DNA of 64,000 nucleotides, taken from assembly GCF_900215245.1 (NCBI RefSeq), contig NZ_LT907842.1, positions 558,001-622,000 on the forward strand, written 5' to 3'. The DNA comes from Pseudomonas fluorescens. Lineage in GTDB: Bacteria; Pseudomonadota; Gammaproteobacteria; Pseudomonadales; Pseudomonadaceae. A program made the translations under genes and the position numbers. Positions within the stretch are counted from its first letter, which is position 1. The number at the start of each line of letters is the position of its first letter. Shown in pieces: positions 35,342-40,552 of this stretch. Below the pieces are notes generated by a model. It had not been told where the DNA came from and did no database searches. It saw only the letters and a program-made list of their open reading frames with translations.

Positions 35342-35426
35342 TAGCGGGTTTGCTTGCGAATGCGCAGTGACAGTCAACCAAGATGTCGACTGACACCGCG
35401 CCTTCGCGAGCAAGCCCGCTCCCACA
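35342..35426. repeat. REPIN with one degenerate arm
   Basis: Right arm CGAGCAAGCCCGCTCCCACA is intact. The left arm (GCGGGTTTGCTTGCGAATGCG) is altered. It lies between the 88-aa gene and the methyltransferase. Confidence 0.85.
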
Positions 35427-35450: not shown

Positions 35451-36179
35451 TCAGCGGCGTGCCGACACCAGCAGCATCATCGGGCGCTCTTGTTCTTCCG
35501 CCAGTTCTGGCCGCGCCATCAGGTCCGCTTCGCTTGGGCCCCACTCCTCGATATGACTCAACGCAAACCCCGCCTGAATCAACAGATTGAGCAACGTGCC
35601 CAGCGTACGGTGCTGCTTGATAACGCCATCGGCCAGCCAGTTGGTGACGCGTGGCCCTTCGATTTGATAGCCATCCACCGGCCAACTTTTTCGGCCTTGA
35701 TCATCGACCAGCCACCCAGGATTGCGCGGTGACATGAAAATAGGGTGCTCGATGGAAAACACCAGTCGCCCGCCGGGCACCAGCGCCTGATGGATACGCT
35801 CGAACAGGCCCTTAAGGTCGACGATGTAATGGAAGGCCAGGGAGCTGTAGGCCAGATCGAATGAGGCCGCCGGCAGGTCAAGTAGCTCCAGGTCGGCAAC
35901 CGTGTAGGTGATACCCGCTGCCGAGGTCATCTCTTTGGCCCGCGCCAGCATCTTGTGCGACACGTCCAAACCGAGCACGTGCGCAGCGCCCTGCTCCTGA
36001 GCCCAGCGACTGAACCAACCATAGCCACAGCCCAGGTCCACCACGTTCAAGCCAGCCATCGCTGGCAGCTGTGCCTGCAACGCAGGCCACTCCGGCGCAC
36101 CGGCCAGGCCTTCGACCGAGCGGCCCATCTTGCTGTAGCCCTCGAAGAAGGCGGGCGTGTCGTAGATATTCTGCGTCAT
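35451..36179 (-). CDS. Class I SAM-dependent methyltransferase
   Basis: A 242-residue methyltransferase with the SAM-binding motif NVVDLGCGYGWFSRWA (near residue 45) and the acidic LGLDVSHKML block. The N-terminus YDTPAFFEGYSKMGRSVEGLAGAPEW resembles small-molecule methyltransferases. The start is the ATG at 36179. It is the last gene of a likely operon with the PfkB kinase (26-bp gap), NCS1 permease and probably the ADP-ribosylglycohydrolase. The substrate is unknown; whether it belongs to that pathway is uncertain. Confidence 0.9.
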   Translation of the reverse strand: MTQNIYDTPAFFEGYSKMGRSVEGLAGAPEWPALQAQLPAMAGLNVVDLGCGYGWFSRWAQEQGAAHVLGLDVSHKMLARAKEMTSAAGITYTVADLELLDLPAASFDLAYSSLAFHYIVDLKGLFERIHQALVPGGRLVFSIEHPIFMSPRNPGWLVDDQGRKSWPVDGYQIEGPRVTNWLADGVIKQHRTLGTLLNLLIQAGFALSHIEEWGPSEADLMARPELAEEQERPMMLLVSARR

Positions 36180-36204
36180 TGCGTTGCTCCGTGCTGATGA
36201 CCGC

Positions 36205-37122
36205 CTATTTTGCCAACAATGCATCCACTTCGTCAGCCCCGGGCGACGTCGCCGGGCCCCAGCGCGTGACCGCCAGCGCTGCCGCGGCATTGGCCCGGCG
36301 TGCCGCCGCAGCAGGCGCCAAGCCCTTGGCCAACCCGGCCAGAAACACACCGGCATGGGCATCGCCAGCGCCGTTGCTGTCCACCGCGTGCACCTTGAAA
36401 CCCGGCACATGCTCCGCCTTGCCTTGACGGCTCACCCAGCAGCCATTGGGCCCATCGCGCACCACCAGCAAGGCTTCGGCGGGCAGGTGGCGATTGAGCG
36501 CCAGCAGCGCCTCGGCCAGCGTCCCGGCGCCGGTAAACGCAAGGGCTTCCGGGCCGTTGCTGGTCCAGATATCGATACGCGGCAGCAAAACAGTCATCAA
36601 GGCCGAATCCGGCGCCTTGACCAACGGCCCCGGGTCGAACACCACGGTGATTTCACGCGGCAGCGCCAGCAGCCAATCGAGCAAGGCCTGGGCCTTGCCT
36701 TCGAGCAACAAACTGTAGCCGCTGACGTACACATAATCGTCCGCGCGCGGTAACACGCCGGCCAAATCCTCAGCCCTCAAGTCACCTTCAGCGCCGATGT
36801 GGGAAATGAAGGTGCGCTCAGTGGTGGCCTCGGTCAGCGACACACACAAACCCGTGTCTTTATCGTCGCTGGCTTCCTGAACCATCTCCACACCTTCGGC
36901 CTGCATGGCCGCGCGGGCCAGGTCGCCGAAGCGCCCTGTTCCATGGCGCCCGAGGTAGACCACCGGCAAACCATTGCGCCGCGCGGCTGCCATCACGTTG
37001 AAGCCACCGCCGGCTTCGAAACTGGCCGATTGCGCCAGCACATCGCCGCCCGTCGCGGGCAAGGTATCGAGGGCCATGACCAGGTCGACGATGACCTGAC
37101 CGGTGTGCAGCAATCTAGACAT
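36205..37122 (-). CDS. PfkB/ribokinase family sugar or nucleoside kinase (YegV-like)
   Basis: A 305-residue kinase of the ribokinase family. Substrate-side glycine pair GGGFNVMAAARR (near residue 38) and the catalytic anion-hole motif DSNGAGDAHAGVFLAG with the base Asp in GAGD (near residue 260). The neighbours (ADP-ribosylglycohydrolase, NCS1 permease, GntR regulator) match the E. coli yegW/yegTUV set, in which YegV is the kinase. It would phosphorylate a sugar or nucleoside released or imported by that system. It overlaps the permease gene by 8 bp. Confidence 0.9.
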   Translation of the reverse strand: MSRLLHTGQVIVDLVMALDTLPATGGDVLAQSASFEAGGGFNVMAAARRNGLPVVYLGRHGTGRFGDLARAAMQAEGVEMVQEASDDKDTGLCVSLTEATTERTFISHIGAEGDLRAEDLAGVLPRADDYVYVSGYSLLLEGKAQALLDWLLALPREITVVFDPGPLVKAPDSALMTVLLPRIDIWTSNGPEALAFTGAGTLAEALLALNRHLPAEALLVVRDGPNGCWVSRQGKAEHVPGFKVHAVDSNGAGDAHAGVFLAGLAKGLAPAAAARRANAAAALAVTRWGPATSPGADEVDALLAK

Positions 37123-38581
37123 TGGGGCTCTCTACTAACGCTGAACGACGGTCGGCCGCGCCGCCCATTACGGCATAACTACCGCCGGCCACCAGGAAGG
37201 TGACAATCCAGCCCAGGCCGTTGTGGCCCAGCCAGGAATCGGACAATGGCCCGGCGAACCAGATGTTTTCGGCGGTGGTGCCGATAGTGGTGAAGCTGAA
37301 ACCCAACACGATCGCCACCGCCCAGGCGCCGAATGCACGCCACTCCACGCCGCCACGGTACCAATAGGCACTGCTTGGGCTTACGTCCAACAGGTCCTTG
37401 GCGCTGTAGTAGTGGCGGTGAATCAGGTCGACCACGAAGATCCCGACCCACGCGGTGATCGGTACTGCCAGCAGCGAGATGAAGGTGATGAACGGGCCAT
37501 AGAAGCTGTCGGCGATCAGCATGAAGTAAATCGAACCGGCGAAGATCGCCACAATATCGACGATGACCGCGTGCACGCGCTTGACCTTCAAGCCGAGGGT
37601 CAAGGTCGTCAGGCCCGCCGAATACACCGAAAGGTTGTTGGAGAGCAGCAGCCCACCAAACGCGGTGATCAGGTACGGCACGGCCATCCAGGTAGGGAGC
37701 ATGTCGCGGATCGCGATGATCGGGTCAGTGGCCGAGGCCAGGTCGTTGTTGCCGACCGACAGCAGGCCGCCAAGGGTGATCAGCAGCACCAACGGAATCC
37801 CCGCACCAAACGCGGCAGAGGCCACCAGGCGCGCGGCCTTGACGCTGCGGTGCTGGTAGCGCGACATGTCGGCACCGGCGTTGGCCCAACCGATACCGGT
37901 GCCGGCGGCCATGGTGCCGACGCCGATGATCATCGCGCTCAGCGGCGCCGGGGTGGCATTGAACACCGCGCTCCAGTCGATGGTTGCGCAGAGGAAGCCG
38001 CCGACCAGAATATTCAACCCACCGAATACATAGGTAGCCCACTTCTGAATCACCAGCAGCGTGGCGTGGCCCAGGCCGGAAACAGACAAGGTCAGCAGCA
38101 CAAAAATGGCGATGAATATCAGTGTCAGCACTGGTGCGCTTTTCGCCTCGACCGGCGAATGGAACAGGATCGAGCACAGCGACAGCAGCACGAAGGCTGC
38201 AGTGGTGGTGTTGACGGTTTCCCAGCCCAGGCGCGACATCAGTGACACCAGGGTCGGGCCGATATTGCCACGCACGCCGAAAATCGCGCGCGACAGGGTC
38301 AAGCTCGGTGCACGCCCACGCCGGCCGGCGATGGAGATGATGCCTACCACCGCGAAGGAGCCGGCAGCGCCGAGAATGGCGACGATGATTGCCTGCCAGA
38401 TTGCCAAGCCACGAAACGCCACCAACGTCGCGCCAAGCGGCAAGCCGAGGATGCTGATGTTAGCGGCAAACCACACCCAGAACAGTTGCAGCGGGTGGCC
38501 GTTGCACTCGCTTTCCGGGACCGGTTCGATACCACGTGTTTCCAGTTGCCCGGCGCTTTGGCCGGAAGAAGGGGTGCTCAT
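37115..38581 (-). CDS. NCS1 family purine/cytosine-type permease
   Basis: A 488-residue transporter with about 12 membrane spans of the nucleobase:cation symporter-1 family (the CodB group). The family region PLGATLVAFRGLAIWQAI lies near residue 40, and TGIGWANAGADMSRYQ near residue 230 corresponds to the substrate-site region. It should import a nucleobase, nucleoside or a related compound. In E. coli the corresponding gene in the yeg cluster is a different (MFS) nucleoside transporter, so the two are analogous rather than homologous. It is in operon with the kinase. Confidence 0.9.
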   Translation of the reverse strand: MSTPSSGQSAGQLETRGIEPVPESECNGHPLQLFWVWFAANISILGLPLGATLVAFRGLAIWQAIIVAILGAAGSFAVVGIISIAGRRGRAPSLTLSRAIFGVRGNIGPTLVSLMSRLGWETVNTTTAAFVLLSLCSILFHSPVEAKSAPVLTLIFIAIFVLLTLSVSGLGHATLLVIQKWATYVFGGLNILVGGFLCATIDWSAVFNATPAPLSAMIIGVGTMAAGTGIGWANAGADMSRYQHRSVKAARLVASAAFGAGIPLVLLITLGGLLSVGNNDLASATDPIIAIRDMLPTWMAVPYLITAFGGLLLSNNLSVYSAGLTTLTLGLKVKRVHAVIVDIVAIFAGSIYFMLIADSFYGPFITFISLLAVPITAWVGIFVVDLIHRHYYSAKDLLDVSPSSAYWYRGGVEWRAFGAWAVAIVLGFSFTTIGTTAENIWFAGPLSDSWLGHNGLGWIVTFLVAGGSYAVMGGAADRRSALVESPNV

Positions 38582-38667
38582 GAGGGGTGCTCCTGGTGCC
38601 TGTATTGTTGTGGTTGTGGCAGATACTCAAAGCTTTAACCGGTCGTCCTGACTCACCTACGATTTAA

Positions 38668-38756
38668 TGTGGGAGCTGGCTTGCCTGCGATAGCGGCCTT
38701 CCAGTTGATGCATCAGTGACTGACAGGTCGCTATCGCGGGCAAGCCCGCTCCCACC
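38668..38756. repeat. REPIN, GCTTGCCTGCGATAGCGG type
   Basis: TGTGGGAGCTGGCTTGCCTG and GGGCAAGCCCGCTCCCACC in inverted order. It lies in the 189-bp gap between the permease gene and the ADP-ribosylglycohydrolase gene of the same cluster. Confidence 0.93.
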
Positions 38757-38770
38757 TTGATCTGCGGTGC

Positions 38771-39772
38771 TTAGCGCAGATCAAGCAGCCCCTGCACCAA
38801 CGGCTGCAAATCCAGGCCGTTGACGGCCTTGACCTGCTCGATCATTGCTTCAGGCCAGCACTGCATCCCCAGGCACGCGCCCAACATGGCGCCGAGAATC
38901 GCGGCGATGGTGTCAGTGTCGCCGCCCAGGCTGGCGGCCAGGCACAGGGCCTCAAAGGCATTCATCGCGCCCACCGCCACTCGCTGCGCGAGGGCAAACG
39001 ACACCACCACCGACTCCTGGGACGCGACGGAGGTGCCGATCAGTTCGTACAGCAAGTCGGCAAACAGGGCTTTGTCGCCGCTGCCGACGCTTAAAGTCCG
39101 CGCCCAACTGATGCGGGTGGAAATGCGTCCACCGGCAACCCAGTGACCATGGCCTTCGGCCTGCTGGGCGATTTGGGTGCCGATGTTCAGCGCCTCCCCC
39201 AGATCCACCCCGTTGATACCCGCCGAGACCACCGCCGCAACGGCCGCCGCGCTGGAAATCCCCAGGCTGGTGTTGTGAGTGACCTGGCACGCCTGGATCA
39301 CCGCCTGGATAAACTGCGCCGGATCGCTGACATCCGCGGCAATCCCCACAGGCGTGATGCGCATCGCAGCACCATTGGTGGTGCCGTAGCGCCCGGACTC
39401 TTCCGGGGTGTGGCCGGCGAGGATCATGTCGATTGCGCGCTTGGTCGACGGGCCGAGCAAATCCTGCGAACCCTTGGCGCGCATTACGGCTTCCCAATCG
39501 ATCAGGCGCTGGGCGAGCACCGTCGGCTCGATCTTGCCTGCGCCTTCCACCAGCAACTCGCCGACCAGGATCGCCTGTTCAGTGTCATCGGTGATGGAGC
39601 CGGCCGGCATGTTTGGCGCGATGGGTTGGTCGGCGTCGGCGTCTTCCAGGGCGGTGATGGCACCGAAACGCTTTTGCACCTGCTCGCGGCTCAGGGACTG
39701 GGTCGGCATGCCCAGAGCGTCGCCCAGGGCCAGACCGTAGAAGGCGCCAAGGGCGCGATTTGCCGAGGTCAT
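38771..39772 (-). CDS. ADP-ribosylglycohydrolase family protein (YegU-like)
   Basis: A 333-residue member of the ADP-ribosylglycohydrolase (DraG-type) family. The dinuclear metal-site motifs are present: SITDDTEQ (near residue 59) and the C-terminal GGDTDTIA (near residue 290). Such enzymes cleave N- or O-glycosidic ribosyl bonds. Its partners here suggest a nucleoside-type substrate rather than ADP-ribosyl proteins, as for E. coli YegU. Its ATG overlaps the GntR gene's stop codon (ATGA). Confidence 0.93.
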   Translation of the reverse strand: MTSANRALGAFYGLALGDALGMPTQSLSREQVQKRFGAITALEDADADQPIAPNMPAGSITDDTEQAILVGELLVEGAGKIEPTVLAQRLIDWEAVMRAKGSQDLLGPSTKRAIDMILAGHTPEESGRYGTTNGAAMRITPVGIAADVSDPAQFIQAVIQACQVTHNTSLGISSAAAVAAVVSAGINGVDLGEALNIGTQIAQQAEGHGHWVAGGRISTRISWARTLSVGSGDKALFADLLYELIGTSVASQESVVVSFALAQRVAVGAMNAFEALCLAASLGGDTDTIAAILGAMLGACLGMQCWPEAMIEQVKAVNGLDLQPLVQGLLDLR

Positions 39773-40482
39773 TTTGACGCTCCAAACTGCAGATGCAGGC
39801 GAAAGTGCAGCGGGTCGAGCAGACTTTCGACGTACTCCATGAAGCGCTCGCGGCGGTCGTAGGTGGTGCGCGAGGCCTTGAGAAACACGGTGCCGGGCGC
39901 GCGACCGAGCAACTCAGCGTCTGCATCGCTGAGGGGCTCGGCGCCGATCCATTGGTCACCTTCGGCGCCGATATAACCGTAAGCGGCCAGGGTAATGGTC
40001 AGGGAATCGTCGATCAGGCCCACGCGCGGCAAGCCTTCCAGGCCACCGGCAGCGGGCATCAGCGAGCGCTCCAGGGACACGGCAGTGCCGTCCGTGGTGC
40101 GCCGACGGCGGTCGAGGGCGATGAATTGGTCACTGCCGAATCGGCTGAGCAGGTCGGGACGGGTCACCGCCTCCAGACGCAGGATGTCAGTGATGACCCG
40201 CGCGCCGGTATCCGCCAGGGCCTGGGCCCAGCCGTTGCGTTGGTCGAGCACCATGCCGTCGAAGGTGACGATGGAGCCGACGCCGCTCTGGGTGGCGATA
40301 TAGTTGCGCCGTTTGAGTTCAGCCAAGGCTTCGCGCAGCGTGCCACGGCTGACCGCGAACTCTTCGGCCAACTGATGCTCGCCCGGCAGCAGGAAACCGT
40401 CGGCCATCACTCCGCCCTCGATACGGCGGATGAGCTCGTCGACGACGCGTTTTTTCTTATCAAATCGGACATGTCTAATCAT
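39769..40482 (-). CDS. GntR family (HutC/UTRA) transcriptional regulator (YegW-like)
   Basis: A 237-residue regulator with a GntR winged helix (LPGEHQLAEEFAVSRGTLREAL, near residue 35-55) and a C-terminal UTRA ligand-binding domain. The ATG at 40482 is preferred over a TTG two codons upstream. An inverted repeat (ACATG-N6-CATGT, 40469-40484) lies at the start codon and could be an autoregulatory operator. It is the first gene of the cluster with ADP-ribosylglycohydrolase, permease and kinase, and its ligand is likely to be the pathway's substrate. Confidence 0.92.
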   Translation of the reverse strand: MIRHVRFDKKKRVVDELIRRIEGGVMADGFLLPGEHQLAEEFAVSRGTLREALAELKRRNYIATQSGVGSIVTFDGMVLDQRNGWAQALADTGARVITDILRLEAVTRPDLLSRFGSDQFIALDRRRRTTDGTAVSLERSLMPAAGGLEGLPRVGLIDDSLTITLAAYGYIGAEGDQWIGAEPLSDADAELLGRAPGTVFLKASRTTYDRRERFMEYVESLLDPLHFRLHLQFGASK

Positions 40483-40484
40483 GT
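40469..40484. promoter_or_regulatory. Candidate GntR-type operator at the regulator start
   Basis: ACATG (40469-40473) and CATGT (40480-40484) are inverted repeats with a 6-bp spacer, covering the ATG of the GntR gene. A weak TTGCTG-17-TTATCA promoter pair lies just upstream on the minus strand. Confidence 0.45.
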
Positions 40485-40552
40485 ACAAATTGATAACCGA
40501 AAGCGTCCAGTGCCAGCAAGTAAATTATTTCAGCGCGATGAAAAAACCCGCC

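Follow-up and report, generated by a model that had tools for sequence, protein, structure and literature searches.

In the PsuT-PsuK-PsuG pathway for pseudouridine, an importer and a PfkB kinase precede a glycosidase that acts on the 5-phosphate, and the frl fructoselysine operon combines FrlR, a regulator of the GntR family, with an importer, the PfkB kinase FrlD and a deglycase acting on the phosphorylated compound. A third system, yegTUV of Escherichia coli with its regulatory gene yegW (ggaR), is an operon of the best-studied bacterium in which no gene has a clear function, according to a 2024 paper that tied the regulator to ADP-glucose, its proposed effector (PMC10819704). Here we analyse a 64,000-nucleotide stretch of Pseudomonas fluorescens DNA (assembly GCF_900215245.1, contig NZ_LT907842.1, positions 558,001 to 622,000), hereafter the window, from a single-contig genome of 6.51 Mb. 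Our subject is a run of five of its genes, all on the minus strand and transcribed in the order GntR/UTRA regulator, ARH-family hydrolase, NCS1 permease, PfkB kinase and methyltransferase. We report that the first four form a real, conserved and uncharacterised module, and that they belong to a widespread bacterial module, E. coli yegTUV included, in which the enzyme pair is constant and the importer is exchanged. We propose, with moderate confidence, that the unit serves the catabolism or salvage of a ribose-linked small molecule and is induced by this substrate, which would be imported, phosphorylated at the 5-position and cleaved to ribose-5-phosphate and an aglycone.

The locus resembles yegTUV in having a GntR regulator, an ARH hydrolase, a YegV-like PfkB kinase and an adjacent importer at one site. 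An earlier note on this DNA had described the gene content of yegTUV-yegW and proposed a kinship with it; that content is present in E. coli as described, and the hydrolase and kinase are 31% and 28% identical to YegU and YegV, respectively. The two systems differ in the importer, a nucleoside-type member of the major facilitator superfamily (MFS) in E. coli (YegT exceeds the nucleoside permease cut-off TIGR00889, 654.9 of 446.1 bits) where the window has NCS1; in the regulator, which in E. coli lies on the opposite strand and is only distantly similar to that of the window (33 bits); and in the residue type of the hydrolase, described below.

The same note had recognised the four gene families together, and each was borne out by Pfam matches above cut-off. 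The regulator gene gntR (39769-40488, minus strand; TTG start, with an ATG start at 40482) encodes a product with PF00392 (54.4 bits) and the ligand-binding UTRA domain PF07702 (45.1 bits). It overlaps by 4 nt the gene for the metal-dependent hydrolase of the ADP_ribosyl_GH (ARH) family (38771-39772, minus; 333 aa; PF03747, 200.9 bits), a proposed 5-phosphoriboside hydrolase. The permease, the proposed importer (37115-38581, minus; 488 aa), matches PF02133 with 183.9 bits against a cut-off of 23.5 and falls short of the TIGR00800 ncs1 subfamily cut-off (68 of 353.1 bits), so that by sequence it is a divergent NCS1 branch; neither the protein itself nor a six-row profile matched any PDB sequence. 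Its gene overlaps by 8 nt that of the PfkB kinase (36205-37122, minus; 305 aa; PF00294, 145.2 of 25.8 bits), which has the GAGD catalytic motif and a residue, D254, invariant in all 13 module kinases compared.

Conservation within Pseudomonas was assessed on the best 80 of 147 loci found through the hydrolase, all 80 of them from Pseudomonas. All four genes occur together in 79 of these, the remaining locus (L030) stopping at a contig edge, and the regulator is present in all 80. Many Pseudomonas species, most of them bearing fluorescens-group names, have hydrolases that are 89-95% identical to the window protein; fluorescens-group strains with the module include P. simiae (L040). Among 149 sampled Pseudomonas species 68 carry the hydrolase, and in 20 of 20 further divergent regions, enlarged from these carriers, the four genes again stand together; with 79 of 80 loci and these diverse regions in agreement, the arrangement is not due to chance. 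Immediately ahead of gntR we noted a putative promoter and operator (40472-40519, minus): the hexamers TTGCTG and TTATCA, 17 nt apart, followed by a block, TTTGTACATGATTAGACA, that crosses the gntR start codon. Across an alignment of 36 sequences, from the window and 35 loci, this block is largely kept even though the DNA upstream differs; its conservation may be partly coding, since it takes in the first gntR codons. Because the genes flanking the module vary between Pseudomonas clades while the promoter-like stretch and TTTGTACATGATTAGACA are largely kept, we delimit the unit as GntR-hydrolase-NCS1-kinase, probably under a control region of its own. The largely conserved block overlapping the start suggests that the regulator controls its own gene. 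With the promoter-like hexamers ending so near the start codon, the transcript may lack a leader. No riboswitch reached the gathering score in the nine loci scanned.

Beyond this genus, we searched 398 genomes of the phylum with a profile of 14 hydrolases (E-values up to 1e-20) and obtained matches in 41, of which 26 matches, the window's own among them, were strong (E under 1e-120). The earlier note had proposed looking in other genomes for the same gene set with alternative transporters, and had argued from two transporter kinds with the same enzymes. Three importer classes in fact adjoin the pair: NCS1 beside seven of the 26 strong matches, YegT-type nucleoside MFS beside ten, and PotABCD-like ATP-binding cassette (ABC) importers beside nine. 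A PfkB kinase accompanies the hydrolase in 22 of the 26, and in the other four the stretch ends too early. A scan that sought only relatives of the module proteins found a module-type kinase or importer beside none of 33 weak hydrolase matches in stretches of 2-4 kb and none of six in 12-kb stretches, counts that overlap, four of the six being enlarged from the 33. Distances between hydrolases and those between kinases are correlated (r = 0.93 over 13 pairs; 0 of 2000 permutations as high), shared ancestry contributing to this value. NCS1 versions occur in Lactiplantibacillus, Plesiomonas, Photobacterium, Paraburkholderia and Pseudomonas. Plasmid records include NCS1 versions (Paraburkholderia, Plesiomonas, Lactiplantibacillus), MFS versions (Pantoea, Salmonella) and ABC versions (Mesorhizobium, Rhizobium, Paracoccus). 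In one Enterococcus and one Listeria record (L120, L126) an ARH gene directly follows a beta-glucoside-type phosphotransferase system (PTS), with no kinase annotated nearby.

A hydrolase tree of 40 rows, rooted on four DraG-like rows and labelled by importer (NCS1, ABC, MFS, PTS or none), requires five changes among its five labels where four are the minimum, hence one extra, and its supported branches force at least two changes each for NCS1 and for ABC. The MFS clade (support 97) groups with the Plesiomonas and Photobacterium NCS1 rows and then with Lactiplantibacillus in a ten-row branch (support 99). A 12-row branch (support 100) unites the Pseudomonas-Burkholderia NCS1 rows with a single, loosely placed ABC row. 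The position of the MFS clade among NCS1 rows makes MFS the likelier newcomer, which probably replaced NCS1 in the E. coli (YegU) branch and not the reverse; several open forks and some long rows make this direction likely, not proven. Thus the transporter exchange foreseen by the earlier note stands, while its picture of NCS1 as a local substitute for MFS does not.

The hydrolase belongs to the ARH superfamily by profile and by predicted fold, the best of five AlphaFold2 models having a mean predicted local distance difference test score of 85.8 and three being poor (64.6, 55.6 and 53.7). Both dimetal motifs, TDDT and DTDT, are present (T61-D62-D63-T64; D285-T286-D287-T288), and the pyrophosphate-binding Gly and His are, by motif, kept (N133-G134, H166). 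DraG Asp97, described as crucial (PMC7050489), is replaced by Leu105, the register being fixed by the D97N chain 2woe, which differs there, and all Gln/Asp-type rows scored have Leu or Ile at this position. In the alignment to 2woc the adenine-reading ExxA motif of DraG (Glu121, Ala124) becomes R128 and T131. Gln25, found in 80 of 80 Pseudomonas relatives, occupies the position of DraG Glu28, the equivalent of Glu41 in the Glu flap of ARH3 (PMC7050489). Module hydrolases as a whole fall into two types, Glu/Asn, to which YegU belongs, and Gln/Asp, to which the window hydrolase belongs; the residue table omitted L187 and L188, two of the six enlarged weak-match loci, which lay below the score limit. 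Phe occupies position 104 in the PTS-linked hydrolases, which branch separately. We also noted a possible subfamily residue, Glu253, which every kinase- or PTS-linked hydrolase scored retains, whereas three of the four DraG-like rows have Arg or Gln there.

In the pathway we propose, the permease would import the intact riboside and the PfkB kinase would phosphorylate the 5-OH of its ribose. In the hydrolase, two divalent metals would then hold the 2,3-diol of the ribose, the 5-phosphate being seated in the pocket that binds pyrophosphate in ARH enzymes, and the enzyme would cleave the C1 bond to release ribose-5-phosphate and the free aglycone. The GntR/UTRA protein would sit on an operator at its own start codon and keep the operon repressed until it bound an intermediate of the pathway. 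A ribose-linked compound is the likeliest substrate class: ARH catalysis is reported to need the cis 2,3-OH groups of ribose together with both metals (PMC7050489), which favours a riboside. To this extent the nucleoside or ribosylated base named in the earlier note is upheld. ARH1 and ARH3 are reported to act on alpha-linked ribose only, alpha-NAD included (PMC6309922, PMC9738213), which sits uneasily with an ordinary beta-nucleoside; common beta-nucleosides are disfavoured if that trait is kept in the subfamily. A cationic or alpha-linked riboside offers the best fit to mixed evidence. By analogy, NCS1 could plausibly carry a cationic riboside, since a nicotinamide riboside transporter of yeast is described as homologous to the NCS1 thiamine transporter Thi7 (PMC6837554). 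In the ABC versions, the binding proteins of 12 module loci were compared with PotD only, other PotD paralogues lying outside the comparison: W34, Y37, D168, E171, W229, W255 and D257 are kept in all 12, and, also in all 12, T35 is replaced by Lys or Gln, S83 by Asn, Y85 by Ala or Val and Y293 by Ala (PotD numbering). We take the listed PotD residues to be ligand-contacting, and the pattern hints at a ligand that is still cationic but bulkier, held in a wider pocket. A more specific and rather improbable extension starts from the two residue types, flap Glu with Asn104 in one branch and flap Gln with Asp104 in the other. In this view the module hydrolases constitute a distinct ARH subfamily that has turned from removing ADP-ribosyl groups to cleaving free 5-phosphoribosides, its catalytic acid having moved, and the module would be the first dedicated breakdown route for ribosides that are cationic or alpha-linked (alpha-nicotinamide riboside or alpha-ribazole, for example). 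Ordinary nucleoside hydrolases are not expected to take such ribosides. Pseudouridine was considered and judged an unlikely substrate, as E. coli carries psuTGK besides yegTUV and PF04227 occurs in none of 149 Pseudomonas genomes. No substrate assignment for the module appeared among the literature matches listed, which mostly leave subscription journals outside their coverage and are not proof of absence.

Several observations weigh against this proposal. The activity of the hydrolase is itself uncertain, because Gln25 replaces a glutamate whose mutation to alanine (E41A) is reported to inactivate ARH3 (PMC8319183). No aglycone-breakdown gene was recognised beside the module when conserved neighbouring open reading frames (ORFs) from 29 Pseudomonas loci, selected for lacking the DUF1285 context (two short contigs, L036 and L038, are included despite this exclusion), were clustered and one representative of each of 10 of the 24 clusters listed was scanned against Pfam. 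Four of the ten had a family above cut-off (an ABC exporter-type protein, a GNAT acetyltransferase, a sugar-binding periplasmic protein and a 2-keto-3-deoxygalactonokinase), none of them pointing to a riboside, and the six without a Pfam family may be spurious ORFs. A related NCS1 in Streptomyces (L129) has neither module hydrolase nor kinase alongside. Lys occupies PotD position 35 in 10 of the 12 ABC binding proteins, which weakens the case for a cationic ligand. The kinase model (predicted template modelling score 0.85; weak at residues 24-37 and 94-102) matches adenosine kinase, fructokinase, ribokinase or ribokinase-like proteins and aminoimidazole riboside kinase about equally, so that the predicted fold is not decisive.

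The order of the two enzymes, which the earlier note left open, bears on the first alternative: that the hydrolase acts first, cutting the riboside to free ribose and base, and the kinase then makes ribose-5-phosphate. The nearest PDB chains to the kinase by sequence are ribokinases, and its top NCBIfam match is the ribokinase model TIGR02152 (106.3 of 299.65 bits, below cut-off), both of which fit this order. At the residues we take to be ribose contacts of E. coli RbsK, to which the kinase is 27% identical (19% to PsuK), all 13 module kinases compared retain D16, G42, N46 and D255 and none retains N14, K43 or E143, the alignment being gapped around 43 and 143; free ribose is thus doubtful as the substrate. 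ARH pockets, moreover, are described as holding ribose with a phosphate on its 5-position (PMC7050489, PMC6309922). A PTS importer phosphorylates its cargo, and the ARH-PTS pairs with no annotated kinase were counted in favour of prior phosphorylation; their hydrolases sit on a separate long branch and a PTS of the beta-glucoside type might instead indicate a glucoside, so that they bear only weakly on order. On balance the kinase looks the likelier first enzyme, and hydrolysis ahead of phosphorylation the less likely order. The same glucoside-type PTS, together with the diversity of importers (NCS1, nucleoside MFS, PotABCD-like ABC) and the acidic and tryptophan residues that the ABC binding proteins share with PotD, would suit the processing of another N- or O-glycoside or of an unrelated permease solute; the ribose diol required by ARH catalysis and the nucleoside permease score of YegT both oppose this, and we consider it unlikely.

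Two further explanations were weighed. A role in ADP-glucose metabolism and glycogen storage has been proposed for GgaR and yegTUV, as ADP-glucose releases GgaR from DNA in vitro and deletion of ggaR raises glycogen (PMC10819704). In Pseudomonas, however, GlgC is above cut-off in none of 149 genomes (best 56 of 424.9 bits; weak relatives in all 149), against 7 of 14 control genomes, other sources of ADP-glucose lying outside this test, and the hydrolase is nonetheless carried by the 68 species noted above. ADP-glucose would also seem to offer no glycosidic linkage of a type that ARH enzymes are known to hydrolyse, and the window regulator resembles YegW only distantly. The role of the E. coli regulator does not transfer easily to Pseudomonas, and we regard this explanation as highly improbable. 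Scarcely less improbable is that the hydrolase strips ADP-ribose from proteins or nucleic acids, as do DraG, ARH1, ARH3 or Tri1, and that its neighbours are unrelated. It shares the predicted fold and metal motifs of these enzymes, but it has lost the DraG aspartate, the ExxA motif and the flap glutamate, misses the Tri1 cut-off and the DraG equivalog cut-off (TIGR02662; 90.9 of 337.05 bits), and is constantly linked to a kinase and an importer.

Other features of the window complete the description. The hydrolase and permease genes are separated by a spacer of 189 nt (38582-38770) carrying an 87-bp inverted repeat at 38669-38755, presumably of the Pseudomonas repetitive extragenic palindromic (REP) pair type, which divides the operon at this point; single arms also occur at 35418 and 32538. 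Downstream, a class I S-adenosylmethionine-dependent methyltransferase gene (35451-36179, minus; 242 aa; Methyltransf_11, 80.3 bits for the longer ORF) begins 25 nt past the kinase, not the 26 bp given earlier. Its proposed part as an added pathway step is unsupported: the gene adjoins the kinase in only 9 of 79 loci (two of the 79 end less than 800 nt from the kinase), and it probably lies outside the module. In a few Pseudomonas loci a reading frame is in two pieces, that of the kinase in L005, L021, L036 and L039 and that of the permease in L014 and L134, reflecting a frameshift, pseudogene or draft error. Apart from the module hydrolase, PF03747 matches the genome only once, with 68 bits, at a C-terminal fragment in an 83-aa ORF (L002; G000:C1:5654813-5654959), which holds only the C-terminal end of a DraG-like hydrolase and is apparently a truncated gene remnant.

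A single enzyme-pair module that extends from lactobacilli to Pseudomonas with exchangeable importers turns the question into one of a shared compound. Pseudomonas species, having no recognisable GlgC, are suitable hosts in which to address it, and Gln25 and Asp104 are residues to probe. Should the substrate prove alpha-linked or cationic, the module would point to a way for bacteria to clear nucleosides that may escape ordinary nucleoside hydrolases. Compared with known systems, the window hydrolase is akin to DraG, ARH1 and ARH3 in fold, dimetal motifs and the Gly and His of the pyrophosphate site, and unlike them in the residues set out above and in its genetic partners. In its proposed working the module would resemble PsuT-PsuK-PsuG, although PsuG (PF04227) is of a different family from ARH, and likewise the frl operon, from which it differs in that FrlB is a cleaving enzyme of another kind and FrlD is only 21% identical to its kinase.

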